Assembly: GCF_902153245.2 (NCBI RefSeq)
Contig: NZ_CABFWF030000018.1
Span: 327,343-391,342, forward strand
DNA: 64,000 nucleotides
Direction: 5' to 3'
Source of the DNA: Pseudorhizobium endolithicum
GTDB taxonomy: Bacteria > Pseudomonadota > Alphaproteobacteria > Rhizobiales > Rhizobiaceae
A program made the translations under genes and the position numbers. Numbering within the stretch: the first letter of the stretch is position 1; each line of letters opens with the position of its first letter. The notes under the pieces were generated by a model that was not told the DNA's origin, ran no database searches, and worked only from the letters and a program-made list of their open reading frames with translations. Positions 13,530 to 58,378 of the stretch are shown here, piece after piece.

Positions 13530-13550
13530 TAAACGGCGAAGCTTGCGCGA
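13530..13550 (-). promoter_or_regulatory. Putative flagellar promoter element upstream of flhA
   Basis: Read on the minus strand, this is TCGCGCAAG, ten bases, then TA, the same arrangement as at five other flagellar operons in this window. It ends 58 bases before the flhA start. Which factor uses it (Rem, VisNR or a sigma factor) is not known from the sequence. Confidence 0.6.
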
Positions 13551-13570
13551 GGGTGTCATGGCGCTACCGG

Positions 13571-13837
13571 TCAGAAACCGGACTGCACCCGTGAGAAGAC
13601 GAGATTTGCGAAGAGATTGATCTGGGCGCCGATGAAGGGCGCCGACATGCCGATCGCCACCATGATCGCGACGATCTTGGGCACGAAGGTGAGTGTCATT
13701 TCCTGCACCTGGGTCAGGGCCTGCAGGATCGCGATGCCCACGCCCACGACCATGGCCGTCAAGACGGCGGGACCTGATGCCACGAGAATGGTCCAGATCG
13801 CCGCCTGCATGATATCCAGGGCATCGGCTTCGTTCAT
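13571..13837 (-). CDS. fliQ: Flagellar export gate protein FliQ
   Basis: This is a small inner-membrane protein of 88 aa with two hydrophobic helices, the normal FliQ size. The conserved middle ALTQVQEMTLTFVPK is intact. It assembles with FliP and FliR into the export gate. ATG 13837 gives MNEADAL and matches the family start. The in-frame extension to 13870 is unlikely. It follows flgD by about 40 bases. Confidence 0.93.
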   Translation of the reverse strand: MNEADALDIMQAAIWTILVASGPAVLTAMVVGVGIAILQALTQVQEMTLTFVPKIVAIMVAIGMSAPFIGAQINLFANLVFSRVQSGF

Positions 13838-13877
13838 GTCGCCCACTCCGGCCCGAATCATTCGGGCCATGCTTTTA

Positions 13878-14393
13878 TCAGCTCGTTGTACCGCCGTCGG
13901 AGTCGTCAGTCGAGCCGTCGCCGGCCGGACTATCGGCAGTCTCGTCCGAGGTCTCTCCCGGCGGCGTCTTGACGATGGGGTTGTCGGAGATCACGACGCC
14001 GGCCTGCAGCAGGACCTTTTCGTTGTCTTCAGTGATGACGATGACGCCGTCGGAATAGACTTCGACTTCCTTGACCTTGCCCATCACCGTGTCGTCCGCG
14101 CTCTGGACGTACTTGCCGACGAGGTCGCCCGCCCGGGTCAGCGCTTCCGCCTGCAGCATGCTGCGGAGGTGCGCGTTGGTCTGGATCGTCTGCTCGACCT
14201 GCGAGAACGAGGCGAGCTGAGACATCTGCTCGCTGGCATCCATCGGATCGGTCGGATCCTGGTTCTTCATCTGGGCGATGAGGAGTTGCAGGAAGCTGTC
14301 GTAGTTCAGGCTCGCCTTGTTGGCGTCCGTAGTGGTGGCGGCCGCGTTCGCCCAGGGGTTGGAAGCGGCCGTAGTTACCGGATCTACCGCCAT
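13878..14393 (-). CDS. flgD: Hook-cap protein FlgD
   Basis: This is the hook assembly scaffold, 171 aa. The conserved core is [20 protein letters not shown] then [12 protein letters not shown] near residues 32-70. It is short compared with enterobacterial FlgD (about 230 aa). It appears to lack most of the tudor/FnIII-like part and ends in an acidic Ser/Thr/Asp-rich tail. The start overlaps the end of flbT by ten bases, so the two are coupled. Confidence 0.92.
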
Positions 14394-14833
14394 GGAGCCA
14401 TCTCCTTGCGGATCTGTTCGACCGTCGCCGGCGTCATTTCCTGGCTGTTCAGGATGCGGTCCTCGATCGGGTAGAGGCCGCGGATCGCCTTCAGGGCATC
14501 GAAGGCCCGGCCGGAGGCGACCATGCCGTCGATCCGCTTCAGCTCGGCGAGGATTTCCTCGTTCTGGAAGCAGTTCAGCAGCATGCTCACCGACTTGCGG
14601 AAGAGCGCCACGGACTGATCCTTGCCTTCAGGGTTGATCAGCATCATCTGCGCGATGAAGTAGAGCTGCCGCAGCGGCGTCGTGGCGTCCTCCGGCTGAA
14701 GCACGTGGTTTTCCAGAAGGAATGTCACGTCGTTCAGAAACTCGAGGGCTACCTTTCGATCAACACGCAGCACTGCGCCGTTGATGAAGATGCGTTCACC
14801 GGATTTCAGCGAGATGCGCAGCGTACTTTTCAT
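14384..14833 (-). CDS. flbT: Flagellin synthesis regulator FlbT
   Basis: This is a 149-aa FlbT-family RNA-level regulator. In Caulobacter, FlbT binds the 5' leader of flagellin mRNA and links flagellin translation or decay to hook completion; in rhizobia its sign may differ. The N-terminus [19 protein letters not shown] and the central [12 protein letters not shown] are family signatures. The ATGA overlap with flaF upstream shows tight coupling with its partner. Structured flagellin leaders in this window (27892-30779) are candidate targets. Confidence 0.95.
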
Positions 14834-15177
14834 TTAAGTCCATCCTTGATGATGGTGGTCACGTCGATGATGCCCTGGTAGTTCGTCGACTGCCGTTTCC
14901 TGATCCGCTCGCATTCCTTCAGTATCCAGATAGCGATGGAAACCAGATTGGCGCGCAGTTCGGCACCCAGTTCGTTTTCCGGCTGCTTCAGGTCCTCGAT
15001 GAACGCGATCCAGACACGCCTGGTATAGTAGACCGCCTCGATGGTGTGCCGGGAGTATTCTCCTGCGTCACGAGCGGCTATGAGAAGTTCTATCGATCGT
15101 TCCAGCGCCTGCCGTTCACGGTCCTTGGCGTCGGCGACGCCATCCTCCATGATCTCGGCATATGAAAACTGGTACAT
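14830..15177 (-). CDS. flaF: Flagellin assembly regulator FlaF
   Basis: This is a 115-aa helical protein of the FlaF family, which acts with FlbT in controlling flagellin synthesis in alphaproteobacteria. It begins [13 protein letters not shown], followed by a run of helices containing [16 protein letters not shown]. The stop overlaps the start of flbT by four bases. It is 33 bases downstream of flgL. Confidence 0.95.
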
Positions 15178-15210
15178 TCATGTATCCTTCATTTTCACGT
15201 ACTTCCTCAA

Positions 15211-16332
15211 TCATCTGAGGAAGTTGACCAGACTTAGCTGCTGCAGGCGCGCGGTGAGGGTGTAGGCCGTCTCCACCAGCGCCTCGAGGCCTTTCATACG
15301 AGTGGAGGCTTCATAGGCATCCACCGCCTCGAGATCATTGAGATGCGTTTCGATGATCTTCTGCTGGGCCTGGAGGGTCTCGTCCGCCTTCTTCACCCGT
15401 TCGGCCGAGAGACCGAGGCGAGCCCGCTCGCCGGTGAGGCCCGACATTGCCTGGCCGATGTAGGCCTGAGCACGGCTGGTCACCACGCCACGGGCATCAT
15501 CGGAGATGTCGTTGGACAGGAACTCCATCGAGATCAGCGACGTCAGCACGAACTTCCTCATGCCTTCGGTGTTGGCATTGGTAGAGGTTTCGACGATCTC
15601 GCTCTGCGTGATGCGGCTCTTCATATTCTCGCCGGACGCATTCGAAACGAATGCACTCCAAAAATCCTGGCCCGTCACGGCCGGATCATGCGGCGGGGCC
15701 GTCAGAAGGTATGGAGCATCGGCGGGATCGGCGGGATCGGCGTTGAACATCCGCTCCATCCGGTCCAGGAAATCCGTCATGTCCTGCTCGGTCATGTCGC
15801 CTCTGGAAGCGATGCCGTTGTCCGACAGGAATTGCGTCAGCTCGGCGTCGAATGCCACCTGCGCGGCAGAACCCGCGGCCGCCACATTCTCGAACGGCTT
15901 CACATCCGAATTGATGCCGGCAAAAAGGTATTCGCCGTTCACCGAGGTATTGACGAAGCTGGAGAAGGTATCCAGCGCCGACTGGATGGACGTGCGCGCC
16001 ACCTTCAGGTTGGTCGCATCGCTGCTGCCGCCGATCCCGATCAGCGAGTCGAGGATCTTCTGCCCGAGGTCGGACATCTTGGACAGCGCCTCTTCCGACG
16101 ACTCCAGCCGCTGGGTGGCGAGCGAATTCGTCGTCAGCATCGACTTGATGCGCAGCACGTCGCGGGTGAGATCGAGGCTGCGCGAGGTTGTGGCGCCCAG
16201 GGCGACGCCGACGTCGGCGTGGCGACCGGTCGTCACCTCCTGCTGTGCCGCAACGATATCCTGCTGCGCCTTCGCCACGGCGTAGCGCATCGTGGTCTGA
16301 ATGCTGAGCGATGAGATGAACGAAGTCTTCAT
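15211..16332 (-). CDS. flgL: Hook-filament junction protein FlgL
   Basis: This is hook-associated protein 3, 373 aa, with a flagellin-like helical N-terminus (MKTSFISSLSIQTTMRYAVA) and C-terminus (ALVETAYTLTARLQQLSL). It connects FlgK to the first flagellin subunits after export. It starts two bases after the flgK stop. The middle domain (about residues 150-250) is variable, as usual. Confidence 0.92.
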   Translation of the reverse strand: MKTSFISSLSIQTTMRYAVAKAQQDIVAAQQEVTTGRHADVGVALGATTSRSLDLTRDVLRIKSMLTTNSLATQRLESSEEALSKMSDLGQKILDSLIGIGGSSDATNLKVARTSIQSALDTFSSFVNTSVNGEYLFAGINSDVKPFENVAAAGSAAQVAFDAELTQFLSDNGIASRGDMTEQDMTDFLDRMERMFNADPADPADAPYLLTAPPHDPAVTGQDFWSAFVSNASGENMKSRITQSEIVETSTNANTEGMRKFVLTSLISMEFLSNDISDDARGVVTSRAQAYIGQAMSGLTGERARLGLSAERVKKADETLQAQQKIIETHLNDLEAVDAYEASTRMKGLEALVETAYTLTARLQQLSLVNFLR

Positions 16333-16334
16333 GA

Positions 16335-17801
16335 TCAGCCCGCCGCCTCGAGCAGTGCCTGCATCATCGTGTCGACCGTCGACATCAGCTTCGCCGCCGC
16401 CTTGTAGGACTGCTCGATGTCGAGGAGGAGGGAAAGCTCTTCGTCGAGGCTCACCCCGGTCTCGCTGGAATAGGCGTCGGTTGCGCGGCTATACATGGCA
16501 AGCTTGTTTTCGGTCGCCGACGTCGCCGTGCTGCGAAGCATTTCGAGCCAGCCGATGGAGTCGGCTGCGAAGGACTGCAGGTCCAGCTTTCCGCCGACCT
16601 GCGTGCTTTCGGCAAAGTCGATCTTCACCTCGAATGCATCGTCGAACTTGTTGAGCAGGTCGGAGAAACCGGTCGACTTGCCGATGTTGACCACATAGTC
16701 CGGACCGTTGATGCCGCCGTCGCGAATGAGCATGGGATCACCCGAGGGCGGTATAACCGCCGGGTTGACCCTGATGCGATTGGCAAGCCCCGGCTCCACC
16801 GTCCCGTCAGCCGGTATCGTCCCGAGATCCCAGGTGAACAGGCCCGGCAAGGTGGGCAATGCGGGCGGGTTGGCGGGATCAGGATCCGTTTCGGCGAATG
16901 CCACGATCAGACCGCGAGCAACCTCGTCCAACTGGCTCTGATAGACCGGAACGATATCGTCGCGTAGCTGAAGAAGCGCCTGGAGCGAGCCTTTGGCACT
17001 TGTGTCCGGGCCTCTGCCAGGCTTCAGCGCGATCCCGTCTATATAGATTCCGTTGCCGGTCGTGGCCGCCCCATAGGCGGACGTCGGCACGAAGGTGACG
17101 GCGCGAGGAACGGTTTCAAAAAGGACCGTTCCGTCCGTGGTGTAGAGCGCAAGGTCATCGTTTTCACGACGAACCGTCGTCACGCCGACAACCTGGGAAA
17201 TCTGCTTGAGCAAGGTTTCCCGTTCGTCCAGGGCGTCGTTGGGATTGCCGCCGACGGCGACCTCCTGCTTCACCTTGTTGTTCGCAAGCTCGAACTTGGC
17301 GAGGAGCCCGTTCAGATCATCGACGCTTTGCTTGATATCCGCGTCCGCTCGCTGCCGGATTTCCTGCAGTTGCGCCGACGCGTTGTTGAGCGCATTCGCG
17401 AGGTCGCGCGCCGTCGAGACGGTCGTTGCACCCACAGTGGTTTCGCCCGGCTTGCTTGCCCAGGTCTGCAGCGTATTGCGCAGGTTGCCTATGAGTTGCG
17501 AAGGAGACAACTCGTAGTCGTTCCCGCCCATGAGCGACTTCACTTCCTCCAGCCCCGCCAGAAGAACCTGCTGGCCGGCGAAGAGGGAGGAGCTCTCGAT
17601 CGTCTGGCGGTAGAGCGCGAGGTTCTGCGACCGCTCGATGGCGACCACCAGAGCCCCGTTCCCACCGGTTGTCAGCACCGCCGACCGCCGCACGTAGTTG
17701 GCGTTCTGGGCGTTGGCAATATTCCTCGACGCGACACCGGACTGGGCACCGGTGTTGTTGAAGATCGATTGCGCGGTGGAAAGTGCGGACGAAAGTGACA
17801 T
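16335..17801 (-). CDS. flgK: Hook-associated protein FlgK
   Basis: This is hook-associated protein 1, 488 aa, close to the family length. The N-terminal rod-type motif is NIANAQNANYVRR, and the C-terminus EELSLLLDIEQSYKAAAKLM is the conserved D0 helix. It is secreted through the flagellar export gate, probably with the help of the FlgN-like chaperone at 9128-9517. It follows flgE by 27 bases, in an operon flgE-flgK-flgL-flaF-flbT-flgD-fliQ. Confidence 0.95.
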   Translation of the reverse strand: MSLSSALSTAQSIFNNTGAQSGVASRNIANAQNANYVRRSAVLTTGGNGALVVAIERSQNLALYRQTIESSSLFAGQQVLLAGLEEVKSLMGGNDYELSPSQLIGNLRNTLQTWASKPGETTVGATTVSTARDLANALNNASAQLQEIRQRADADIKQSVDDLNGLLAKFELANNKVKQEVAVGGNPNDALDERETLLKQISQVVGVTTVRRENDDLALYTTDGTVLFETVPRAVTFVPTSAYGAATTGNGIYIDGIALKPGRGPDTSAKGSLQALLQLRDDIVPVYQSQLDEVARGLIVAFAETDPDPANPPALPTLPGLFTWDLGTIPADGTVEPGLANRIRVNPAVIPPSGDPMLIRDGGINGPDYVVNIGKSTGFSDLLNKFDDAFEVKIDFAESTQVGGKLDLQSFAADSIGWLEMLRSTATSATENKLAMYSRATDAYSSETGVSLDEELSLLLDIEQSYKAAAKLMSTVDTMMQALLEAAG

Positions 17802-17828
17802 CTGGTGGCCTCTAGGAACGAATTCCCG

Positions 17829-19055: not shown

Positions 19056-19089
19056 ATCAAATCCTCGTTGTAGCTTTATGTCCGCAGAG

Positions 19090-19110
19090 TAGGGGGTGGG
19101 CCTTGCGTGA
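19090..19110 (-). promoter_or_regulatory. Putative flagellar promoter element upstream of flgE
   Basis: On the minus strand this reads TCACGCAAG, ten bases, TA (followed by CTCT, giving the hexamer TACTCT). It matches the element upstream of flhA, fliH, motA, fliF and the DUF1217 operon, in the right direction for flgE. Confidence 0.6.
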
Positions 19111-19158
19111 AGCTGTCTGAAATCCCGCTTCGTCGTCGGATGTGAAGAGTTTCAGGCT

Positions 19159-19830
19159 TCAATCCCAATCGATGCAGTAGCCAAGGAAGCGCTTCGAATC
19201 GATCGGGTCGACGCCGAGCTTCTTGCGCAGCTTCTTGCGCAGCTTGCTGATGTGGCTTTCCACCACGTTCTCCTCGACCTCGTCGTCGAAGATGCCGTAG
19301 ATCGCGTTGAAGATCTGCGTCTTGGAAACACGCCGGCCGCGGTTGGCAACCAGATATTCCAGGATGCGCCGTTCGCGGCGCGGCAGGGGGAAGACTTCGC
19401 CGGCGATCTCGGGATCGCGGCCGTCCGAGAAGACGCGGATCTGGCCGACGTCGGTGTAGTTGGCGATCGCCTTCAGGCGACGCCGGATAGCCGCTGCCCG
19501 CGCAAGAATCTCACGGGGATGGACCGGCTTGCGCACGACGTCGTCGACGCCGCTGTCGAAAAGCGCCAGGGTCGCGTCGAGGGAAGGCTGATCGCTGACT
19601 GCGATCACCGGCGCCTGGGAACGATCCCGGATCGTGCGGGGCAGTTCCAGCATGCAGTCGCCCTGCCCGATCAGGAAGGCCTCTACGGCGTTTATGTCGC
19701 CGTCTGCTGCGGTATTCACCCATTCGTTGAATTCCGCCGGGTCAAAACCGGTCGAGGGGATGCCCTCGCGCCCAAAAAGGGAAGTATAGCCGTCCTTAAC
19801 GAGCTCACGCTCATCAACCACTACGATCAT
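19159..19830 (-). CDS. rem: Motility transcriptional activator Rem (OmpR-type)
   Basis: This is a 223-aa orphan response-regulator-like activator. Residues 1-115 form a receiver-like domain. It keeps the conserved Lys ([11 protein letters not shown]) but has no Asp at the end of the third strand (AVEAFLIG), so it is probably not phosphorylated. Residues 125-223 form an OmpR-type winged helix ([33 protein letters not shown]). In S. meliloti, Rem is the class IB activator of flagellar operons, is induced in exponential growth under VisNR control and activates its own gene. It sits between flgE and the lytic transglycosylase gene. Confidence 0.93.
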
Positions 19831-25190: not shown

Positions 25191-25313
25191 TGCTGGAACC
25201 TGTTTTTCCTGTCTCGCCCAAGCCTAACGTACCGGACGGAACAAAGAGTTACCGTCGGCACCAGCTGATGTGCCGTCCCACCCACGGGCGATGCCGGGCA
25301 TCTGACCGCAGGC

Positions 25314-25334
25314 TAGAATTCCAAGCTTGTGCGA
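25314..25334 (-). promoter_or_regulatory. Putative flagellar promoter element upstream of the fliH-motB operon
   Basis: The minus-strand reading is TCGCACAAG, ten bases, TA. It lies 124 bases from the start codon, so the transcript would have a longer leader than at the other sites. It stands immediately after the flaC terminator hairpin. Confidence 0.55.
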
Positions 25335-25344
25335 GGATGAAGGT

Positions 25345-27979: not shown

Positions 27980-28054
27980 GCAGTTAAGGTGAGAATGGTT
28001 AACAGATCTTAAACACAATCTACCGAGTTAAGGAAATCGCGCCACCCACGGCGC

Positions 28055-36740: not shown

Positions 36741-37127
36741 TTACCTTCTTACCGTCATGAGCATCATGCTATGAAAAGACTTCACGAGACTGGTGCTGAG
36801 TTCGTACTGGCGCTTGATCTCGCCCGTCTTGGAGAGTTCCTCGGCAAGGGCCACAGTGTTGCCGGACTCCTGGATGCCGATCTCGTTGTTCAGCTCATTC
36901 TCGTTGACACCGATATCCTGGCTGTACTGGCTTTCGGCGAGATGGCCCGCGTGGGTCCGCACCATACGGACCTGCGTCTCGTCCAGAACAGCGTTGAACG
37001 GCGTGATGTCCTTGGCCCGGAACTCGGGGGTATTGGCGTTGGCGATATTGGTGGCCACGACTTCCTGGCGGACCGAAAGCCATTCAGCCTGCCGGGATGC
37101 GAGCGCGAATAGTTGGATCGGTTGCAT
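36741..37127 (-). CDS. flgB: Proximal rod protein FlgB
   Basis: This is a rod subunit of about 128 aa with the motif [18 protein letters not shown] and the C-terminal [17 protein letters not shown]. The start is set at the second ATG (37127, MQPIQLF) because GGAG sits six bases upstream and the family starts there. ATG 37139 with GGAAAG is an alternative that adds four residues. Confidence 0.93.
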
Positions 37128-37179
37128 AGGCTTCTCCATCGTTCTTTCCGGAGCCTATGCAGGTAATCTTGCGTGGGAC

Positions 37180-37752
37180 TTACGGACGTTCCGTCGTCCC
37201 GTCCTGATAAACCTCGCCGGACGAGGTGACGATGACCCACGCCCCTTCGCGCTGCTCGATGCGCGCAAGCTTGCTGTTGTCCGGCAGGATCGATCCCACG
37301 CGCACCATGTACATGCCCGAGCCGTCCTGGATGAGGGCGCGGCCATTGGTGACATGCAGTAGCTTGAAGGAACCCTTTCCTGGAAAGGGCTGCAGCTCCT
37401 GCAACTGGCCCCGCTGCTCGTCTTCGCCGAGTGCGGACACGGTCGCCGTGGTAAGCGAATCCGTCGGCTCCGGAGCCACGGGCTGCTCGTCTTCCTGCGA
37501 GTTGTCGGTCATCGCCAGCGGCGAGACGCTCATGACGTTACGCGGCTGTCCCGGCGGCAGGTCCCGGGTATGTTCGAAACTTTCCGTCCGGATGCCGAAC
37601 TTCTCCTCGTTGAAGAAGACGTACCACGGGAAGAAGGCGGAAGCCGCCGCAAGTGCGATCCCCGTGGCCGCAAGCAGCCGGTCACCGAGCCGCGGCGCGT
37701 CCTTCGTCGAGTGATGAAGGTCCCCCGCCTCCTGCATATCGGCCTCGGACAT
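37180..37752 (-). CDS. Conserved rhizobial flagellar-operon membrane protein, unknown
   Basis: This 190-aa protein has a cytoplasmic N-terminus of about 25 residues and one membrane span (about 27-46, LLAATGIALAAASAFFPWYV). An acidic, disordered linker follows. The C-terminal domain (about 130-188) has the pattern LLHVTNGRALIQDGSGMYMV then RVGSILPDNSKLARIEQREG. This domain recalls the small beta-domain of PilP/GspC-type pilotins, which bind ring-forming secretins, but the similarity is by eye. It sits between fliI and flgB, as an unnamed gene does in S. meliloti, so a structural or assembly role in the basal body is plausible. Confidence 0.8.
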   Translation of the reverse strand: MSEADMQEAGDLHHSTKDAPRLGDRLLAATGIALAAASAFFPWYVFFNEEKFGIRTESFEHTRDLPPGQPRNVMSVSPLAMTDNSQEDEQPVAPEPTDSLTTATVSALGEDEQRGQLQELQPFPGKGSFKLLHVTNGRALIQDGSGMYMVRVGSILPDNSKLARIEQREGAWVIVTSSGEVYQDGTTERP

Positions 37753-39908: not shown

Positions 39909-40685
39909 TCATTTGCCTCCGAGTTTCAGTGCATTGATCGAGATGAGAAGATCGGCCGAGATGCCTTGCGTGGACGGAGAGAACAGCGAGACAGCCGACA
40001 CGGGCTCGACCCTGTTCTCCATTTCCCAGAGCGCGGAGAAGCGCTCGAGGAATTTGGAAACCTTTGCGGGATCCTGGAAATCGGCGATATCAACCGCCTC
40101 TTCGATGAACTCCACCTGACGATCGAGGTCGAGCGCGGCGATCTCGTCCGGCAACTGGAGGACGGTGCGCACGACCTCGACCAGGGCGTCGTCCGCCAGT
40201 ATCTCCATCCCCGACTTGATCGAAGGCGCCATGCGTTCGAAGTAGAGCGCCAAACGGACGCCGGGGTTCTCCGCTCCGGCCTCTTCTTCCAGCGTCTGCC
40301 GCTGGAACCGCTCCACGACCCCCTTCTGGGCCTTCTCGAACGAGGTCGCGGAGGAACCGAACGCCTCGAAGTTGAAGGTCTCCGCAAGGGAGGCATAGCG
40401 GCTGTCGGCAAGCTTGCGGGCAAAGGCGTTGTCGTCGGCGACCCCTTCTGTCAGCACCTTGCGGATGAAGGCCTTGGCATAGGCCATGTCCTCCAGCCCA
40501 TGCGCCTTGAGCGCATAGTTGTAGATGCGGCTGTCGGCCATGAAATCATCGACGGATTTTATCCTCCCGATATTGGCCAGGTAGTACTCGGTCTCGCGGG
40601 CGACGTCGGGCTTTTCCGCAACCCGCGCCAGCGAGCCGGGCAGGTCCCTGCTGATCATCGAGTAGCTCGCATAGGTGGTGATCAC
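39909..40685 (-). CDS. DUF1217-type flagellar protein, unknown function
   Basis: This 258-aa, mostly helical, cytoplasmic-looking protein belongs to the DUF1217 group found next to flgF and motA in rhizobia. Visible features are the N-terminal TTYASYSMISRDLPGSLARV and the repeated helical pattern with SRIYNYALKAHGLEDMAYA. The C-terminal FSPSTQGISADLLISINALK resembles the end of flagellar axial proteins. GTG 40685 (GGAG upstream) is preferred; the extension to 40796 crosses the promoter element. It is the first gene of the long rod/ring operon. Confidence 0.8.
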   Translation of the reverse strand: MITTYASYSMISRDLPGSLARVAEKPDVARETEYYLANIGRIKSVDDFMADSRIYNYALKAHGLEDMAYAKAFIRKVLTEGVADDNAFARKLADSRYASLAETFNFEAFGSSATSFEKAQKGVVERFQRQTLEEEAGAENPGVRLALYFERMAPSIKSGMEILADDALVEVVRTVLQLPDEIAALDLDRQVEFIEEAVDIADFQDPAKVSKFLERFSALWEMENRVEPVSAVSLFSPSTQGISADLLISINALKLGGK

Positions 40686-40735
40686 GTTCCGCTCCTCAGG
40701 TCCCGGACGGGCACTGTGCCAATTGGAGCCACCAG

Positions 40736-40756
40736 TAGGGGCAAAGACTTGTGCGA
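40736..40756 (-). promoter_or_regulatory. Putative flagellar promoter element for the DUF1217-flgF operon
   Basis: On the minus strand this reads TCGCACAAG, ten bases, TA. It ends 51 bases before the GTG start at 40685. It forms a divergent pair with the motA element at 40789-40809, the two 5' ends being 33 bp apart. Confidence 0.65.
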
Positions 40757-40788
40757 AGCTGTACCCCGCCCCGCCTCCCCAATCAGCC

Positions 40789-40809
40789 TCACGCAAGCCA
40801 GAGGCCGTA
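40789..40809 (+). promoter_or_regulatory. Putative flagellar promoter element for the motA operon
   Basis: On the plus strand this reads TCACGCAAG, ten bases, TA (TATTTC). It lies 41 bases before the motA ATG. It is the only plus-strand copy and precedes the only plus-strand flagellar operon, so orientation follows gene direction. Confidence 0.65.
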
Positions 40810-40849
40810 TTTCCCGATGGACAAGCTTAATTTCGATGCAGGTACGCGG

Positions 40850-41722
40850 ATGAATATTCTAATCGGAATGGTGATCACGTTCGGCTGTGTTATCGGTGGC
40901 TACATGGCCATGGGCGGGCACGTGGACGTTCTGTTCCAGCCGTTCGAACTGATGATCATCGGCGGCGCCGGCCTCGGCGGCTTCATCGTCGCGAACCCGA
41001 TGAAGGTCGTGAAGGATTCCGGCAAGGCGCTCGGCGAAGTCTTCAAGAACGCCGTGCCGAAGGAGCGGAACTATCTCGACGTCCTCGGCGTGCTCTATTC
41101 CCTGATGCGCGACCTGCGGACGAAATCGCGCAACGAGATCGAAGCACACATCGACAATCCGGAAGAATCCTCGATCTTCCAGACGGCGCCGAACCTCCTG
41201 AAGAACAAGGAACTCACCTCGTTCATCTGCGACTACGTCCGGCTGATCATCATCGGCAACGCCCGCTCGCACGAGATCGAGGCGCTGATGGACGAAGAGC
41301 TGGAGACGCTGCTCCACGACAAGATGAAGCCGTATAACGCGATCTCGCAAATGGGCGACAGCTTCCCGGCCATCGGCATCGTGGCCGCCGTCCTCGGCGT
41401 CATCAAGGCTCTCGGCAAGATCAACGAGTCGCCAGAGGTCCTGGGCGGCCTGATCGGCGCGGCGCTCGTCGGCACCATGCTCGGTATCGTTCTTTCCTAT
41501 TCCGTCTGCACACCGCTCGCCTCGCAGGTGAAAGTGGTGCGCTCCAAGCAGCATCGCCTCTTCATCATCGTGAAGCAGACGCTGCTCGCCTACATGAACG
41601 GCTCCGTGCCCCAAGTGGCCCTGGAATACGGCCGCAAGACCATCTCCAACTACGAGCGCCCCTCGATCGACGCGGTCGAGCAGGAAATGATGAATCCAGG
41701 CGGTGACCACAAGGCGGCATGA
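40850..41722 (+). CDS. motA: Flagellar stator protein MotA
   Basis: This is a 290-aa stator subunit with four membrane helices: two near the N-terminus ([20 protein letters not shown]) and two at about 165-220 ([38 protein letters not shown]). The large cytoplasmic loop carries the rotor-facing charged residues. ATG 40850 matches the family start; upstream in-frame codons overlap the promoter element. It overlaps fliM by four bases. Confidence 0.95.
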
Positions 41723-42675: not shown

Positions 42676-42739
42676 AGCGGCGAACGGTGATCCGTTCGCA
42701 AGGCAGGTTGACGCAAGTTTCAACGGGAATAATGAGCGC

Positions 42740-44575: not shown

Positions 44576-45652
44576 TTGTCAGAAGATAAAGACAGTAAAA
44601 CAGAAAACCCGACCGCCAAGAAACTGACGGATGCGGCGGCCAAGGGCAATGTCCCCTTCTCCCGCGAAGTGCCGATATTCGCGTCGGCGCTGGCCTTCTA
44701 CATCTTTCTCATCTTCTTTCTGCCGTCGGGCGTTGCCGACCTTACGGAAACGCTGAAGGACCTGTTCTCCCAACCGGATCAGTGGCGGCTTGAAAATACG
44801 CCCGACGTCGTTTCGCTGGGCGTGCATCTTGCGTGGGCGGTGGCAGGCTTCCTGGTTCCCGTCATGCTGCTCTTCGTTCTGTTCGGGCTCGGATCCTCCC
44901 TCGCCCAGAACATGCCGTCGATGGTGCTGGAGCGGATTCGACCCCAGGCTTCGCGCATCTCCCCCAAAAAGGGCTTTGAGCGGATCTACAGCCTTCCCGG
45001 ACTGGTGGAATTCCTCAAATCGTTCTTCAAGATCCTGATCGTGTCCGCGATCATGTATTTTGCGTTGCGCGGCGAGTTCTTCGCCACGTTGAATGCAATG
45101 TTCTCCGACCCGCAGGTCATCCTGGTGAAGCTCGACGCCATCGTGCGGAAGATGATGGTGATCATCCTGCTGGCGACGGCGCTTCTGGCAGCTGCGGACG
45201 TGGCCTGGTCCCGTCACCACTGGTTCACCCAACTCAAGATGACCAAGCAGGAAGTGAAGGACGAATACAAGCAGGCCCAGGGCGATCCGCTCGTGAAGTC
45301 CCGCCAGCGCTCTCTGGCGCGCGACCGCGCCCGCCGCCGCATGATGGACAGCGTGCCCCGCGCCACCCTCGTCATCGCCAATCCGACCCATTTCGCCGTG
45401 GCGCTGCGTTATGCCCGGGAAGAGAACGACGCGCCGGTGGTCGTGGCCAAGGGGCAGGACCTGATCGCCCTCAAGATCCGAGAGATCGCCGAGGCAAACG
45501 GCATACCCGTGTTCGAGGATCCCCCACTCGCCCGCTCCATGTTTGCGCAAGTCTCGGTTGATAGCGTCATTCCGCCAGCCTTCTACAAGGCGGTGGCGGA
45601 ACTCGTGCACCGGGTCTATGCCTCCCGGTCGCTCAAGCAACGGACACATTGA
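44576..45652 (+). CDS. flhB: Flagellar export switch protein FlhB
   Basis: This 358-aa membrane protein controls export specificity together with FliK. The N-terminus [19 protein letters not shown] is followed by four membrane helices. The autocleavage site NPTH is at residues 269-272, exactly as in enterobacterial FlhB. The start appears to be TTG at 44576; the nearby ATG at 44566 is in another frame and stops quickly. The rare start may keep expression low. Confidence 0.93.
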
Positions 45653-45657
45653 GCGCG

Positions 45658-46098
45658 ATGAAAAAATGCGACCACTCTGCGGAACGGGAAAAAATACTGG
45701 CCGAGGCGATCAGTCCGGTGGCAACGGAGCTACGCCTGCTCGATGCCGGTGACCTGATCGCCCTGCTCCGCCTGGAGTGCTACGGGAACCTGGCCGATCT
45801 GGTGTCGTCGGCTGCAGAGCTCTATTTCCATCCGGGCACCGTGAACTTCGGCGCCGGCGGCGAATACGTTCTCGAATGGAGCGGTCAGCCGCAGGTCGTT
45901 CTTGACCTGGAAATCAAGCCGAAGGGCGTCTCTGTGTATGCCCGTCTCACGCTTGCCGACACCCAAGCCGGCATCGAGATCGACCACATCGCGTTCCAGA
46001 GCCCGGCCGAGGATCCGGCGGACAACACCGCCTTCCTCGAACGCAGCTTGCAGGAAGCGCGCTTCGTCCGCACGCCGCCCATGGCGCTCGCCAGCTAA
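45658..46098 (+). CDS. Conserved hypothetical protein after flhB
   Basis: This 146-aa soluble protein has no recognisable domain. The N-terminal half is helical (CDHSAEREKILAEAISPVAT, LIALLRLECYGNLADLVSSA). The C-terminal half looks like a beta-sheet (YVLEWSGQPQVVLDLEIKPK, VYARLTLADTQAGIEIDHIA). It starts six bases after the flhB stop (TTG 45649 would overlap it). The gene occupies the place of an unnamed gene between visR and flhB in S. meliloti. Conservation of place suggests a motility role, but none can be assigned. Confidence 0.75.
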   Translation: MKKCDHSAEREKILAEAISPVATELRLLDAGDLIALLRLECYGNLADLVSSAAELYFHPGTVNFGAGGEYVLEWSGQPQVVLDLEIKPKGVSVYARLTLADTQAGIEIDHIAFQSPAEDPADNTAFLERSLQEARFVRTPPMALAS

Positions 46099-46862: not shown

Positions 46863-46878
46863 GGATGCAGTGATTTCC

Positions 46879-47862: not shown

Positions 47863-47889
47863 AGCAGTAACAATGTCGTGAGAGCGGGA

Positions 47890-49569
47890 TCAGGCGGCCT
47901 GATCGACTGCCCATTTGCGGAGGATCTTGGCGGCGCGCTCTTCGCTGATCTCCACCATCCGCGCAAGACGCCGCTCCGGTCCTTCCTTGACCCGGCGGTT
48001 AAAGCCGCCATCGTCGTCGCCCATTCCCAACAGGTCGTCGGTGCTGTCGAAGCCGAAGTCCGCCCCGAAGCCCTCCATGAGCGACCCTCCGCCGGAGGCC
48101 GGCGAGAAGTCCGGCAGCTCAAGCCCGGCACTGTCGGCGGACAGTTCCGTCGAGGCCGTCGCGGCGCCGCCGACGGTGCGGACGAGCGGCCGAAGTCCGA
48201 GCCAGACCACCAGGAAGGCGACCACGACGAAGGCGAGCGAGTTGATGATGCCGCCCAGGTTGCGGCTGAGCACTTCGGTAACGCCGGGACCGGACGCGGC
48301 CTCTTCGAGAAGTTGCGACTCCAGGAAGTCCATCGCCGTCAGGGTAACCAGATCGCCGCGCTCCGGATTGAGGCCTGCAGCGGAGGTGACGATCTTCTGC
48401 ATTTCGGCCAGGTAGGCATCGATCTTCGCCTGATCGACGGGCTCGCCGACCATCTGCGCTATGCGCCCCCTGTTGACCACCACCGCGACCGACAGCTTCT
48501 CGATCTTGTAGCTGTTGCGTACGGTGGCGACCGTCTTGCTGTTGATCTCGTAGTTGGTCTGTTCTTCCTTCTTGTCGGACTGATCCGACGACTGCGGCCC
48601 ACCTGCCGCACCGGCCTCGGGTGCCGCCTGCGGCACGTTCTGCTCGACGGTGGCGGCAGAATCGTTCTGGCTCTGCTGCGAGCGCTGCTCTTCCTTGGTA
48701 ATGCGTACCGAGCGCTCCACGCGGGATTCAGGATCGTAGATCGTCTCCTGGATCTGCTGGCTGTCGGTGTTGAGGTTCGCGGTGACGCTGGAGCGGAAGT
48801 TGTCCATCCCGAGGAACGGGGCCAGCGCCTTGTCGATGTTGGTTTCGAGCTCCTGCTGGACCGACTGGACGATGTTGAGGGAGCGGTTGAGCTCGCTGTT
48901 TCCGTATTCGTCGCCGGCGGCGAGGAGCTGTCCGGTGGAATCGAGAACCGTCACGTCGTCGACTTCGAGACCGGGAACGGCCGAGGCGACGAGATGACGA
49001 ATGGACGAAGCGGCCTTGCGGCCGGTGCTTGTGCTGGCACGGATCATCACCGACGCCGTGGGCTTCTGCTCGCCGCGCCGGAAGTTGCCGACATCGGGCA
49101 TGACGATGTGCACCCTCGCCGCCGCCACGCCACTGATCTGCTGGATGGAACGGCCGATCTCGCCTTCCAGCGCACGTACGCGCGTGACTTCCTGCATGAA
49201 GGAGGTGAGCCCGAGGGAACCGACGTTGTCGAACAGTTCATAACCCGCATTGGCGCTGTTCGGCAGGCCGCGCTCGGCCAACAGAAGGCGCGCCTTGCCC
49301 GTCATCCCGACAGGTACCTGGATGCTTGTACCGTCCGTTCCGACGGCGAAATCCAGGCCCGCCTCGGCGAGAGCGATGCTAACCTGATTGAGATCGGTCG
49401 TCTCGAGCCCGACGTAGAGCGTCTCGTATGCGGGCTTGTTGACGTAGAAGGCTGCGGCAAGAACCAGAGCGACGGAAACGGCACCCACTCCCGCAAGGGC
49501 AATAAGCTTGGTCTGGCCCAGCTTGGCCAGATTATTGAAAACTTGAGAGAATTGAGCCAACAGATTCAT
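47890..49569 (-). CDS. fliF: MS-ring protein FliF
   Basis: This is the MS-ring subunit, 559 aa. It has two membrane spans, at about 25-47 (LIALAGVGAVSVALVLAAAF) and about 430-455 (INSLAFVVVAFLVVWLGLRP), with ring-building domains between. The C-terminal FliG-binding tail (PERRLARMVEISEERAAKIL) is intact. ATG 49569 matches the family start. It has its own putative promoter element (49619-49639) downstream of cheT and its own terminator. Confidence 0.96.
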   Translation of the reverse strand: MNLLAQFSQVFNNLAKLGQTKLIALAGVGAVSVALVLAAAFYVNKPAYETLYVGLETTDLNQVSIALAEAGLDFAVGTDGTSIQVPVGMTGKARLLLAERGLPNSANAGYELFDNVGSLGLTSFMQEVTRVRALEGEIGRSIQQISGVAAARVHIVMPDVGNFRRGEQKPTASVMIRASTSTGRKAASSIRHLVASAVPGLEVDDVTVLDSTGQLLAAGDEYGNSELNRSLNIVQSVQQELETNIDKALAPFLGMDNFRSSVTANLNTDSQQIQETIYDPESRVERSVRITKEEQRSQQSQNDSAATVEQNVPQAAPEAGAAGGPQSSDQSDKKEEQTNYEINSKTVATVRNSYKIEKLSVAVVVNRGRIAQMVGEPVDQAKIDAYLAEMQKIVTSAAGLNPERGDLVTLTAMDFLESQLLEEAASGPGVTEVLSRNLGGIINSLAFVVVAFLVVWLGLRPLVRTVGGAATASTELSADSAGLELPDFSPASGGGSLMEGFGADFGFDSTDDLLGMGDDDGGFNRRVKEGPERRLARMVEISEERAAKILRKWAVDQAA

Positions 49570-49618
49570 TCTGTTCCCACATCGCAAACTCGGATCAGGC
49601 TTATGCCCATGCCCACCC

Positions 49619-49639
49619 TATGCAACGAAGCTTGTGCGA
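49619..49639 (-). promoter_or_regulatory. Putative flagellar promoter element upstream of fliF
   Basis: On the minus strand this reads TCGCACAAG, ten bases, TA, with the hexamer TAGGGT. It lies 50 bases before the fliF start, in the 134-bp gap after cheT. Confidence 0.65.
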
Positions 49640-49703
49640 GCGTTTCCGGATTGTGATGTATGGCTGCCGGCTGGCGGTCAGAATCCCGTGGGAACGTACC
49701 GAC

Positions 49704-50093: not shown

Positions 50094-50121
50094 GGCTTTC
50101 CTCACGTCCCGGAGGGACTGA

Positions 50122-53004: not shown

Positions 53005-53468
53005 GCAGCTTCACTTTCCGTTTCGGGGAAGAGACTGTCGAGTTCGATCATGCAGATCATCCGCTTGTCGATCGCGAGTATCCCTCGGGCATACTGTTTC
53101 TCCAGGTCCGAAGACACCTCCGGCACCGGCTGGATATTATCCTCGGTAATCGTAAGGATATCGGAAACGGCCTCGACCAGAAGGCCGACGACGCGGCTCT
53201 TCACCTGCGCCACGATGATGACGTGACGGGCCGAGGGCTCGGCCTCTTTCATTCCCAGCCTTGCCGAAAGATCGACGATCGGAAGCACGGCGCCGCGGAG
53301 GTTGATGACGCCCATCACGTAAGGCGGCGCATGCGGCAACGGAGTGGCCTGCGTCCAGCCCCGTATTTCCCGCACCGACATGATGTTCACACAGAACTCC
53401 TGATCGCCAATGCGAAACGCGATCAGTTCACGACTTCCTTGGAGCGTGTTTTTCACGGCATACGACAT
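53001..53468 (-). CDS. cheW: Chemotaxis coupling protein CheW
   Basis: This is a 155-aa CheW domain protein linking receptors to CheA. The family motifs LIAFRIGDQEFCVNIMSVRE and VMGVINLRGAVLPIVDLSAR are intact. It lies four bases after cheA and overlaps cheR. Confidence 0.96.
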   Translation of the reverse strand: MSYAVKNTLQGSRELIAFRIGDQEFCVNIMSVREIRGWTQATPLPHAPPYVMGVINLRGAVLPIVDLSARLGMKEAEPSARHVIIVAQVKSRVVGLLVEAVSDILTITEDNIQPVPEVSSDLEKQYARGILAIDKRMICMIELDSLFPETESEAA

Positions 53469-53472
53469 ACAA

Positions 53473-55719
53473 TCAACCCGTGGCGGCTAGTGACATTTCC
53501 GGTTTGAGGGACTGGCCGCGCGACGCCGCCACCACGGCATCGACGTCCAGGATGAGAGCGACGCGGCCATCGCCCAGAATGGTTGCCGCAGCGATGCCGG
53601 GTACGTGCGTGTAGTTGGCCTCGAGCGACTTGATGACCACCTGGCGCTGTCCCTGGATCGCGTCGACCATGAGCGCCCGCTGCCCGCCACCTTCCGACTC
53701 GACGAGAAGGGCCACACCTTCGACCGGGTTGGCCTGGCTGGACCGGAAGTTGAGGATGCGGCCGACATCGACCAGCGGGCAGAAGGAGTTGCGGATCGAG
53801 ATCAGGCGCTGGTTCGCGCCGAAGGAATGAATGGAGGATGCCTCCGGCTGCAGCGTCTCGACGATCGCCGTCAGCGGTACGACAAGGGTTTGTCCGGCAA
53901 CCGTCACCACCATGCCGTCGAGGACTGCGAGCGTCAGCGGCAGGCTCATCGTGAAGGTCGAGCCGTGGCCCGGCCGGGACGAGATCGAGATGCGGCCGCC
54001 CAGCGCCTGAATGGAGCGCTTGACCACGTCCATGCCGACGCCGCGGCCGGAGATGTCGGAGATCTTGTCAGCCGTCGAGAAACCCGGAGCGAAGATCAGG
54101 TTGTCGATCTCCTCGTCGGTCAGGTTGGCGTCGGCCGCGATCAGATCATTGTCGATCGCCTTCTGGCGAACGCGCTCGCGATTGATGCCGGCGCCGTCGT
54201 CCACCAGTTCGATGACGATGCGGCCCGAGCGATGCTTTGCGGTCAGCTTGATCGTGCCTTCCGGATCCTTGCCGGCAGCCTCACGCTTTTCGGGCGTCTC
54301 GATGCCGTGGTCGACGGCGTTGCGGATCATGTGCGTGAGCGGCTCGGCCAGCTTGTCGATGACCGTCTTGTCGACTTCCGTGTTCTCGCCTTCCGTCACG
54401 AGGCGGATCGACTTTCCGACCATGTCGGCGACTTCGCGGACGATGCGCGACATGCGCTGGAAGACCGGCTTAACCGGCTGCGCGCGGATCGCCATGACCG
54501 AATCCTGGATCTCGCGGGTGAGCTGCTGGAGCTCTTCGAGGCCCATGTTGATGGAGGAGGTCCCGGTCGTGTCGTTCTCGATGACGCTCTGGGAGAGCAT
54601 CGCCTGGTTGATGACGAGCTCGCCGACGAGGTTGATCAGGCGGTCGACGCGGTCGAGATCGACGCGGATCGTCTGGCCGGCAGCAGCGGCGGCGGCGGCA
54701 TTTTGGGCTGCGGCGGTAGCCGAGGCGGAGGCAGCGGCCGCTTCCTTCTTTTCCACGCGAGCGGCAGCGGCGGCCATCTTGGAGACGGAGGTGGCGGTTT
54801 CGGCCGCGGCCACGACTTCGGAGGCCGCCGCATTGGCGGGAGGAGCCGCCTCCGAAGCTGCATCTCCCTCATCCAGCGCCGCGAGGTCGAACGGCACGGG
54901 GATCATCGGCAGCTCATCGTCGGTGGCAGATGCTTCCTGCGCCTTGATCTCAAGATCGCAATCCCACTCGGCGAACTCGAACACGGCGCGGATATCGTCC
55001 TCCGACTTGGCCGTGGTGAGCTGAATGGTCCAGCCGAAATAGGCCTCCTCCGGGTCCATCTTGTCGAATTCGGGAAGGGAACCGGCATCACAGTTGATGC
55101 TCATTTCGCCGATACGGGACAGGTCGCGCAGCAGAAGAGCCGCCTCGTTGCCCTTCGTATACAGCTCGCGGCGCGGGCGGAAGGAGATCTCGTATGTCTG
55201 GCCATCCTCGGCAGCCTCGCCCTCGTCGAAGGAATCGAAGGAGAAGGGGATGGGCTGGAAACCACCGTCATCGGTGGGTGCGGGCGCTGCCGGGGCCAAA
55301 ACCGGGTCGGACGCCTTCGCAGCCGGGGCGGGCACTTCGCCATTCGCCAGTGCCTCGAGTTCCTTTACGAGGGACCGGCTGCGGGCCTCGTCCACATAGC
55401 CGCCGTCACGCGCCGCATTGGTCAGGTCTGCCAGAACATCGGCCGACTTCAGCATGACCTTCAGGACGTCCTGCGTCGGCTCCAGCCTGTTGGAGCGGAC
55501 GCAATCCAGCGTCGTCTCGAACACGTGCGCGAATGCCACGAGATCATCCAGGCCGAATGCACCGGCACCGCCCTTGATGGAATGAACGGCGCGGAAGACG
55601 GCATTCACCGTCTCGGGATCGCGATCTCCGTCGTTGAGCTTCAGAAGCCCCGATTCCAGTTCCGCGAGCTGCTCCTCGCACTCCTGGAAGAAGATCTCTT
55701 TAATTTCGTTCATGTCCAT
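53473..55719 (-). CDS. cheA: Chemotaxis histidine kinase CheA
   Basis: This is a 748-aa kinase. P1 has the phosphorylated His46 (AVHSIKGGAGAFGLD). A P2-like region lies at about 170-280, then an Ala-rich linker. P3 is the dimerisation domain (DRVDRLINLVGELVINQAML). P4 carries the N box HMIRNAVDHGIETPEKR and the G boxes DDGAGINRERV and GRGVGMDVVKRSI. P5 is the CheW-like domain. It phosphorylates CheY1, CheY2 and CheB. The long Ala/Val/Glu linker before P3 (about residues 280-335) is unusual only in composition. Confidence 0.97.
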   Translation of the reverse strand: MDMNEIKEIFFQECEEQLAELESGLLKLNDGDRDPETVNAVFRAVHSIKGGAGAFGLDDLVAFAHVFETTLDCVRSNRLEPTQDVLKVMLKSADVLADLTNAARDGGYVDEARSRSLVKELEALANGEVPAPAAKASDPVLAPAAPAPTDDGGFQPIPFSFDSFDEGEAAEDGQTYEISFRPRRELYTKGNEAALLLRDLSRIGEMSINCDAGSLPEFDKMDPEEAYFGWTIQLTTAKSEDDIRAVFEFAEWDCDLEIKAQEASATDDELPMIPVPFDLAALDEGDAASEAAPPANAAASEVVAAAETATSVSKMAAAAARVEKKEAAAASASATAAAQNAAAAAAAGQTIRVDLDRVDRLINLVGELVINQAMLSQSVIENDTTGTSSINMGLEELQQLTREIQDSVMAIRAQPVKPVFQRMSRIVREVADMVGKSIRLVTEGENTEVDKTVIDKLAEPLTHMIRNAVDHGIETPEKREAAGKDPEGTIKLTAKHRSGRIVIELVDDGAGINRERVRQKAIDNDLIAADANLTDEEIDNLIFAPGFSTADKISDISGRGVGMDVVKRSIQALGGRISISSRPGHGSTFTMSLPLTLAVLDGMVVTVAGQTLVVPLTAIVETLQPEASSIHSFGANQRLISIRNSFCPLVDVGRILNFRSSQANPVEGVALLVESEGGGQRALMVDAIQGQRQVVIKSLEANYTHVPGIAAATILGDGRVALILDVDAVVAASRGQSLKPEMSLAATG

Positions 55720-55747
55720 CGGAGGAAATCCTGATCAGGCTGTTGTT

Positions 55748-56113
55748 TCAGGCTGTGACGCGCTCGATCGCATCGATGAGCTTGGCCGGGTCGAACGGCT
55801 TTACGATCCAACCCGTGGCGCCGGCCTGGCGGGCACGGTTCTTCTTGTCCGCGTCGCTCTCGGTCGTCAGAACGAGGATCGGAACGGCACGGTACTTCTC
55901 GTTGCGGCGCACACCCTCGATGAAGCCAAAACCGTCGAGGCGCGGCATGTTGATGTCGGTGACGATGACATCCGGGTTTGCATCTTCCAGGACTTCCAGC
56001 CCCTCGACCCCGTCCTCGGCCTGGACCGTTTCGAAGCCGGCATTGTTGAGCGTTACAAGGAGCATGTTCCGGATCGTCCGGGAATCATCCACCGTCAGCA
56101 CTTTCTTCTTCAT
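55748..56113 (-). CDS. cheY1: Response regulator CheY1 (phosphate sink)
   Basis: This is a 121-aa receiver domain with Asp9-Asp10 (LTVDDS), Asp53 (VIVTDINMPRLDG), Thr in VLTTESD and Lys in VKPFDPAKL. By S. meliloti precedent it drains phosphate from CheY2~P through CheA, with help from CheS. It lies four bases after cheS. Confidence 0.92.
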   Translation of the reverse strand: MKKKVLTVDDSRTIRNMLLVTLNNAGFETVQAEDGVEGLEVLEDANPDVIVTDINMPRLDGFGFIEGVRRNEKYRAVPILVLTTESDADKKNRARQAGATGWIVKPFDPAKLIDAIERVTA

Positions 56114-56117
56114 GATT

Positions 56118-56411
56118 TCAGTTCTCCTTGGCCGTCAGTTGGTTGGGGTCGAGGCCGATGAGTTGCAGGGTCTTTTCAAATGCGTCCGATGACTTCTCCA
56201 CGACGAACGCCTTCTTGTCGGCCTGCCAGGCACGGGCAGCCGCGACGATGATCTGGACGCATTGAGCGCCCAGGCGTTCGACTTGCGAAGCATCAATCTT
56301 CAGGTTGCGGCCGCGAAGCTCCGTCAGCTTGCCATGCAGGACAGAGGCCTCGTTCAGGTCCAGGACCGAGGATAGTGTCAAACTCTCCTGGGCAGCCTTC
56401 TTGCTCGCCAT
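56118..56411 (-). CDS. cheS: STAS-domain chemotaxis protein CheS
   Basis: This 97-aa protein has the STAS/anti-anti-sigma fold pattern (LTLSSVLDLNEASVLHGKL, KIDASQVERLGAQCVQIIV). In S. meliloti CheS binds CheA and speeds dephosphorylation of CheY1, and the orthologue is also 97 aa at the same place. The site where SpoIIAA-type STAS proteins are phosphorylated does not carry the usual DSS/DST motif, so it probably works by binding only. It overlaps icpA by one base. Confidence 0.9.
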   Translation of the reverse strand: MASKKAAQESLTLSSVLDLNEASVLHGKLTELRGRNLKIDASQVERLGAQCVQIIVAAARAWQADKKAFVVEKSSDAFEKTLQLIGLDPNQLTAKEN

Positions 56412-58048
56412 CAGTTCATTCCTTGTCTCTTGGAAAATAGAAGCTCTTCTTGTCCTTCGCGGGCGTCCTCGATTCCGAGCGGCAGTGCCGCCACGGGACG
56501 CAGAAGCTGCGGCGGATTGGCTTTCGGCCGGTCGGCATGGTAGCGGACCTGTCGTTCGATGCGGAATTCGCGAACCGTGCGCCCGAGTTCGAGGATGACC
56601 GTGTGGAGGTCATCGGCCCCGGATCCGACCGCCTGCGCGCGCCCGGCCGTCGCACCGATCTCGCTGCCCACCTGGGTGAGCCCCGCAGAGACGCTTTCCA
56701 GGGCGCCGACATTCTCGTCCGCGCGGGTGGCGATGCTTGCGATCGCATCGTTGATCTCGGAGACCTGCCGGACGATTCCACCGATCGCATCCTGTGTGCG
56801 GTGCACCATCTCCACCCCGGCGTCCACCTGCGTCTTCGTGGTGCCGACCAGCGACTTGATCTCACGGGCAGCATCCGCCGAACGCTGCGCAAGGGCGCGC
56901 ACTTCCTGTGCCACGACCGCAAAGCCCCGCCCGGTCTCACCGGCCCGCGCAGCCTCGATCCCGGCGTTGAGGGCCAGAAGGTTGGTCTGGAAGGCGATCT
57001 CGTCGATGACCCCGATGATCTGGCCGATCTTTTCAGCGGAGTTCTCGATATCGGCCATGGCATTGATGGCCCGACCGACCGCTTCACCGCTTTCCTCGAC
57101 GGTGCTGCGCGTCGTGGCGGCGACCTTTGCCGCCTCAGCGGTTTCGGCCGCGCCGGCCCGCAGCCGGCCGGCCAGTTCTTCGAGCTCCTGTGCCGCGCCA
57201 CGGACGCGGGTCGACTGATCGTCCGCCTCTTCGGCCAGGATCATGGCCTGAGCCGCCAGCGCGGCGGAGGCTTGCTCTGCGCGGCCTGTGTGTTCGCTTG
57301 CGGAAGCGAGAGAGCCGCGCATGCTTTCGATTGCCTGGCTCAGGATGGAGGCCATTTCGGCATAGGCCTCGGGAACGTTCTCGGGCAGAGAGGCCGTCAG
57401 GTCCCGCTCGGCGAGCGAACGCACGACGTCGGAGAGCAACTGAACCACCTCATCGCGGTCATCCCGGCGCTGTTCTTCGAGGGCGCGATGATGTTTCTGG
57501 CGAAGTTCGTTGAAGCGCAGCGATACGGCAATCTCCACGTCGACCATCACGAGCCGCACGAGCGCAGCGACGATGTCCGAGACCTCCGGGGAGCCGCGAC
57601 GGCCCAGTTTCAGAAACCTGCCGCGCCCCTCCTCCGCCATCAGCCCCTTGAGCAGATGTTCCAGGATGACGGCATGGCCGGCGATGTGCCATCTCGGATC
57701 GAGGCCCATGCGGCTTTCGCTGTCGGAAAGGACTTTCACGCGTTCGGCATAGAGGGCGTCGAACCGGGCGTCGGTGAGAACGCTCCAATGGGATGCCTGG
57801 AGATCGTGCAGGCGCTCGATCTGCTGTTCGCTGGCGAAGACGCGGGCCGAATCGGGATAGGACTGATAGCGATGGAAGAGGTCGCGCAGGCCCGCCTTGA
57901 CGGCCGGCTCCAGTTGCGACCGATGGCGGCGCAGCAGATCGCAAGAGGTCTCGTCAAGACCGGCAAACGCCAGCCTTTCCCCCAGGCTTCCCGCCTGTCC
58001 TCTTCGCGATTGATCGGATCGCGTCTCGTGCCCCAACTGCGTCCCCAA
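56411..58048 (-). CDS. icpA: Soluble globin-like chemoreceptor IcpA
   Basis: This is a cytoplasmic methyl-accepting protein, 545 aa, without membrane segments. Residues about 25-180 form a globin-coupled-sensor domain ([20 protein letters not shown], then [10 protein letters not shown]). The signalling domain ends in the canonical tip [20 protein letters not shown]. At the position of the proximal haem His (HxxIGL in HemAT) this protein has Glu111 (ESRMGL), so haem binding is doubtful. It heads the che operon. In S. meliloti the first che gene is icpA, an internal chemotaxis protein. Confidence 0.9.
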
Positions 58049-58378
58049 AACCTGTTACACCCCGATAAGGGTCGAGTGCGAAATCGCTCGCGATGACAAA
58101 CGCACCTGCCGAGACCCGCAGAACAAGCGCCAGCCCGTTACCCGGCGGCGCAGACAACACGGTCACCGCAGTCGTTGTGGTTGTGATCATGAGCAGATAC
58201 CGGGTCGAGACCGGTACGGCAGTGCGGCGTCATGCCAGTTGGGAATGCCGGTTACCCATTTTGCCGTGGTGTCTAATATGTATGGTTAATTCCTTGCCTG
58301 AAGGTTAAGAATGCCCCGAAACTGTCCCGGTTGCGCACTGCGTCGCCGCATGGACGGATGGAGGCCGACCGCGGGCTC
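58049..58378 (-). promoter_or_regulatory. che operon upstream region
   Basis: This 330-bp gap lies between icpA and the DNA glycosylase gene. No convincing gene is present; a 78-codon frame near icpA starting at 58190 is Thr-rich and has no support. An AT-rich part at 58270-58310 holds the near-match promoter element and two TTAACC elements read toward icpA (58284-58290 and 58303-58309). If it is the promoter, the leader is about 230 bases long. Confidence 0.4.
58281..58301 (-). promoter_or_regulatory. Near-match flagellar promoter element upstream of the che operon
   Basis: On the minus strand this reads TCAGGCAAG, ten bases, TA. It differs from the TCRCRCAAG form at one position but keeps CAAG and the exact spacing. 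It is followed by CATAT, an AT-rich -10-like segment. It lies 233 bases from the icpA start. Confidence 0.45.

Follow-up and report, generated by a model that had tools for sequence, protein, structure and literature searches.

In the VisNR-Rem flagellar cascade, the regulators VisN and VisR (VisNR) stand above rem, and Rem stands above the class II genes, fliM and orf38 among them, according to passages of PMC8429497. Passages of PMC9812332 describe Rem as acting without phosphorylation. FtcR and LafR are relatives of Rem, and the Brucella FtcR is said, in passages of PMC9456535, to bind upstream of fliF, with TGTGGGCA as its motif from chromatin immunoprecipitation sequencing. The Rem cascade itself is already known. 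A defined box shared by many species and lying at a fixed distance from a -10 hexamer is not stated in these passages. No published consensus for the Rem site was found in the titles, abstract openings and passages searched (the key 2006 study lay outside the search), and the motif letters used as a literature query turned up no title on flagellar regulation among those listed. Here we describe such a box, TCRCRCAAG-N10-TA, in a 64,000-nucleotide stretch of the Pseudorhizobium endolithicum genome (contig NZ_CABFWF030000018.1, positions 327,343 to 391,342), called the window below. The gene set, the regulator and the class II role agree with the cascade as given in the passages of PMC8429497 and PMC9812332. 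In our judgement, with good confidence, the element probably serves the Rem regulon as its operator-promoter module and contains the putative Rem site. This reading is favoured because of the sequence of the element, its conservation, its fixed spacing, its genomic specificity and its co-occurrence with Rem.

The box was present six times in the window as an exact match, for 0.05 expected, and none of 100 shuffled sequences reached six. A sequence-only reading of the same DNA had listed these six copies; their positions and strands were confirmed, they were the sole exact matches, and all six were oriented like the downstream gene, as had been claimed. On the minus strand, boxes followed by a -10-like hexamer precede flhA (13526..13556), flgE (19086..19116) and the orf212-motB-motC-fliK operon (25310..25340), at 57, 34 and 123 bases from the start codon, respectively. 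Two divergent boxes were found at 40732..40762 (minus strand), 50 bases before the DUF1217-flgF operon (GTG at 40685), and at 40783..40813 (plus strand, with a -10 hexamer), 40 bases before motA (ATG at 40850). The sixth copy, also with a -10 hexamer, was located at 49615..49645 (minus strand), 49 bases before fliF (ATG at 49569). The interval of 35-58 bases given previously for five of the six was thus true to within one base (34-57 counted). When one mismatch was allowed, 11 matches were obtained in the window for 2.2 expected, including 37156-37176 before flgB and 58281-58301 before the che genes. Gene calls were made with Pfam (flhA, flgE, rem, DUF1217, motA, fliF, motB, fliK, fliG, the flagellins and mcp) or NCBIfam (fliN and flhB); for visN and visR, two adjacent LuxR-type genes, the names rest on their position and on published work.

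With Rem as the query, 80 named loci were collected, mostly Rhizobiaceae by title; all counts and tests treat related genomes as independent. These loci (1.62 Mb) contained 254 exact matches, all on the plus strand of the oriented loci, with three matching places in almost every locus. The 19 matches outside these places, mostly at a site inside motC, were left out of the profiles; the motC site is clade-specific, scored above 12 in 2 of 4 aligned relatives and was rejected as apparently incidental. Anchored on the gene, the exact box was found before flgE in 79/79 loci and before flhA in 77/78. For orf212-motB, 45 of 78 loci had it no further than 220 bp from the aligned start, the other 33 being mostly Sinorhizobium/Ensifer, and an exact site was located 5.0-6.7 kb upstream of rem, the place of the motB operon, in 79 loci. 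The fliF box was present in 29/29 named genomes, and a 30th locus, itself a weak partial match, was without it. It was also found in 30/30 loci of the family sample (the best 30 of 50 matches, own window included), at least three of which share coordinates with genomes of the named set. Among 20 regions that were fetched, 18 yielded motA, 12 DUF1217, 18 flgB and all 20 mcp. The motA box was seen in all 18, and the DUF1217 9-mer in all 12 but its TA in just three. The sequence-only reading had regarded the box as a mark of class II-type operons and had pointed to conservation in orthologous promoters as a check; the positions before the flhA, flgE, motB, motA, fliF and flgB orthologues bear this out, with the dependence of class II operons on Rem taken from the review PMC8429497. 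In loci L042, L043 and L046, a second flgE-type box was visible about 1.6 kb after the first, and we suspect that it reflects a tandem flgE copy.

Between species the flanking sequences were near random, and the element stood out as a conserved island (79, 79 and 76 sites at the three places). The conserved columns were C at -5, A at -4, TCRCRCAAG at 0-8, approximately YTTCG at 9-13, TA at 19-20 and often T at 24. The full module is close to MCANYY-TCRCR-CAAGYTTCG-N5-TANNNT, with rigid spacing before orthologous operons. A weight profile was built from five promoter groups, and its fixed columns are inflated because its sites were picked by the exact pattern; the motA group consisted of 23 sequences picked by a letter rule, with some DUF1217 sites among them. 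When the window was scanned with this profile, no box rose above noise ahead of visN, rem and the flagellins or at either end of the window. In none of the 80 relatives did the 220 bp preceding rem contain an exact box. The earlier claim that visN, rem and the flagellins are without a copy was upheld.

The genome of this organism and those of related Rhizobiaceae were scanned for the box, as the same reading had proposed. In 20 named Rhizobiaceae genomes the strict form MANNYTCRCRCAAG-N10-TANNNT gave 66 matches and its reversed control three, and 62 of the 66 belonged to flagellar regions, being within 60 kb of fliF or corresponding to the motB-flgE pair. The family sample of 61 genomes contained 101 strict matches in 44 genomes, compared with 11 for the control, eight of which came from one genome. 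The whole genome of P. endolithicum (4.19 Mb) had 13 exact matches, six of them inside the window, and four matches to the reversed pattern. A coincidence of letters, by chance or driven by coding sequence, would account for some of the copies elsewhere in the genome and for the motC site, which look incidental. The shuffled and reversed controls and the conservation at orthologous non-coding sites refute it for the main sites, and as a general explanation its probability is close to nil.

Seven exact matches lie outside the window in the P. endolithicum genome. They were considered as members of the regulon and rejected; at five of the seven, a Pfam search of ten neighbouring open reading frames (ORFs) detected no flagellar family. 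One of them (L007/L284, own genome C13:382304-382324) fits the full module, and the 151-aa ORF that follows it matched no family in Pfam or NCBIfam. Tandem CAAGCTTCG-CG-CAAG boxes were also observed away from the flagellar genes of the window, at L283 (own genome C6:125819), L271-L274 and L276; the one at L276, whose genome gave no Rem match, adjoins an OmpR-like gene. Perhaps a paralogous regulator recognizes these tandem CAAGCTTCG-type boxes as a related site of its own.

The averaged profile of the five groups showed its strongest self-similarity at a direct offset of 11 bp, and this was the top direct offset in each of the five groups. The half-sites are approximately MCAGCYTCG and CAAGYTTCG. 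A direct repeat of 10 bp, read by eye, was abandoned since the profile preferred 11 bp. The downstream part of the module consists of TA at a fixed distance, with T favoured at +24, as the sequence-only reading had suspected in describing a TANNNT-like hexamer, though the flhA site is without this T. If TANNNT is the -10 element at -12 to -7, the box spans about -37 to -18. The promoter record of phoA in Escherichia coli K-12 reads ctgtcataaag-ttgtcac, then ten bases, then tatagt, and we take the first part of it to be the pho box. The present element, with its putative direct repeat of 11 bp about ten bases before the -10-like hexamer, resembles in this the pho box bound by PhoB. According to passages of PMC3616915, the pho box replaces the -35 element. 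The two differ in their letters and in the regulator, as Rem has a degenerate receiver and is said to act without phosphorylation.

The fixed N10 spacing to TA and the strict orientation would also be expected if an alternative sigma factor recognized the element by itself, as a two-part core promoter that needs no bound activator, the other possibility raised by the sequence-only reading. We regard it as unlikely. The downstream part looks like the TANNNT of a sigma-70 -10 element, the presence of the box tracks Rem in the order sample described below, and the letters are off the consensus of both sigma-54 and FliA. Sigma-54 promoters have the form GG-N10-GC at -24/-12, and the six box sequences did not fit it. 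Of the two possibilities, a Rem site overlapping a promoter is the one that best explains the module sequence.

Co-occurrence with Rem was examined in a sample of 150 genomes of the order, in which the box was found in 28, Rem in 32 and FlhA in 112. Among the FlhA-bearing genomes, the box was present in 20 of 29 with Rem versus 3 of 83 without it; outside the family the corresponding values were 15/24 and 3/83. The FlhA matches were split by score into two groups, and each of the 28 genomes in the higher one had Rem. Twenty box regions from Rem genomes outside the family were inspected, and ten matched a flagellar or chemotaxis protein of the window or Rem. In these ten, boxes precede flgE, motA, DUF1217 or flgF, a flagellin and a CheY-like gene, and one divergent motA/flgF pair of boxes also exists there (L258). 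For the flhA box outside the family, median scores were -9.8 versus -14.0 (p 0.001), and we think that flhA is often not the head of an operon in these genomes.

Another regulator could bind the box, for instance VisNR, placed at the head of the cascade in passages of PMC8429497, or a further OmpR-type paralogue, of which the tandem CAAGCTTCG boxes off the flagellar genes, one by an OmpR-like gene without a Rem match in the genome, would be a sign. A VisN match was detected in 5 of the 150 genomes, all within the family. The distribution of the box does not follow VisN, and VisNR was rejected as the binder on this ground: its binding is unlikely because, at E 1e-15, VisN went undetected in 17 genomes outside the family that carry both Rem and the box (VisR was not searched). 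In addition, rem, said to be activated by VisNR, is without the box. Taken with its other candidates, this explanation appears a little less probable still than the sigma-factor one.

The proposed binder, Rem, is encoded at 19159..19830 (minus strand) and is an OmpR/PhoB-type regulator by Pfam, with a winged-helix effector domain (Trans_reg_C) at 59.7 bits, above its cut-off, and a receiver at 26.2 bits, under the cut-off of 30.2. Its matches in the Protein Data Bank were RegX3, PrrA and PhoP. Aligned with RegX3, Rem has a Glu where the phospho-acceptor Asp is presumed to lie, in agreement with the action without phosphorylation described in passages of PMC9812332. We propose that Rem, an activator of the OmpR/PhoB family with a degenerate receiver, would bind the box of about 20 bp, probably as two half-sites of nine bases with a pitch of 11 bp. 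The upstream half-site would take the place of a -35 hexamer, Rem would recruit the sigma-70 RNA polymerase to the poor -10 (TANNNT), and its activity would be set by the amount of Rem. We infer Rem binding, head-to-tail recognition, the contact with sigma-70 and the start sites.

Several observations weigh against this proposal. Of the 61 family genomes, 51 gave a strong Rem match (E 3e-62 or better). The presence of the strict box in 44 of these 51 versus none of the 10 others speaks for the proposal, but this contrast is confounded because nine of the ten genomes without Rem also had no FliF match. The order sample is the better test of the link, and there the strict box was not found in 9 of the 29 flagellated Rem genomes. 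Ten of the 20 box regions outside the family had no flagellar protein of the window nearby. For flhA outside the family, box scores above 15 were reached in 2/20 versus 0/20, which is a weak comparison. Concerning the anatomy, half-sites at single window sites agreed at just 3-6 of 9 positions, and inverted symmetry around column 3.5 was higher than the direct repeat in two of the five groups, motB and motA, so that the 11-bp direct repeat is favoured rather than proven. The FtcR 8-mer of Brucella, TGTGGGCA, as given in passages of PMC9456535, fits the box poorly.

The sequence-only reading was right about the six operons fronted by the box and missed two further boxes, one before flgB and one inside flhB. 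The first, a variant with one mismatch and a -10 hexamer, was located at 37152..37182 (minus strand) inside the DUF1217-flgF operon. CAAG-N10-TA was retained in 18/18 relatives, and the start of flgB is probably the ATG at 37127, with GGAG ahead of it. The second, at 45537..45567 (plus strand), lies inside the 3' part of flhB and is directed towards the ORF at 45658-46098. It scored 24.6 with the position weight matrix (PWM), and 19/19 aligned relatives scored above 12. The excess of codon homozygosity along flhB had its top three of 201 sliding windows starting at codons 320-322, on the box; its mean was 0.39 over the 10 box codons versus 0.11 over the other 200, and the codons TTT, CAA, GTC and GAT were each retained in 20/20. 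The box appears to constrain codon choice in flhB.

Two weak candidates were also recorded. The one at 42703..42733 (plus strand) precedes fliN and has AATAAT in the -10 register; its PWM score of 8.1 is close to the maximum of 8.2 for the reversed sequence, and none of 15 aligned relatives scored above 12, though CAAG and an AAT-like stretch recur. It may partly reflect the ribosome-binding region. The other, at 10178..10208 (minus strand, PWM 8.9), overlaps the end of the ORF at 10179-10595 and precedes a flgJ-like gene, an ORF with a weak FlgJ match. None of its 22 aligned relatives scored above 12, and the letters recur.

CtrA is likewise of the OmpR type and acts at promoters of flagellar genes, and in this respect the promoters that it activates are similar to those considered here. 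According to passages of PMC3616915, the CtrA site is TAA-N7-TTAAC, and the fla genes of Sinorhizobium meliloti have Motif 2 (TTTGTTAACCAT) together with CtrA-type sites. The six box sequences do not fit TAA-N7-TTAAC as given there, and a CtrA site was rejected for them; the element before the che genes is more CtrA-like. The che near match had been added to the set by the sequence-only reading. Its letters are indeed present, and they belong to TTAACC-TTCRRGCAAGGAA-TTAACCATA, conserved in 13 of 20 relatives, so the site was dismissed as a seventh member. This TTAACCAT element was found in the window at 58281..58308 (minus strand), before the mcp/che operon, and before a flagellin at 28002 (minus strand). 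In the 80 loci, 129 of the 141 forward copies of TTAACCAT preceded a flagellin start by no more than 500 bp, and mostly by 20-50 bp; the reverse strand had 33 copies, and the reversed string occurred 18 times. The element resembles Motif 2 and the CtrA-type sites in the passages of PMC3616915, and is likely a class III element. The elements of class II and class III thus seem to differ, with TTAACCAT before the che and flagellin genes. The che region begins with a gene at 56411-58048 (minus strand) for a chemoreceptor with a protoglobin domain.

In a broader view, to which we give about even chances, the rigid pho-box-like 30-bp module, read by an OmpR-type activator whose receiver is degenerate, would be the ancestral flagellar switch of the order, above which VisNR was added later in Rhizobiaceae, and it would also be used inside coding DNA, as a codon freeze with an internal promoter in flhB for the following gene and in the middle of an operon at flgB. 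In many symbionts, as in other alphaproteobacteria, flagella are under the control of Rem and its relatives. A sharp consensus would make the regulon readable from genomes, with the internal promoters of flgB and flhB as predictions, and the Rem-type box as opposed to TTAACCAT would separate class II from class III genes. The module would also offer an exact test case for the recruitment of RNA polymerase by an activator whose receiver is degenerate.

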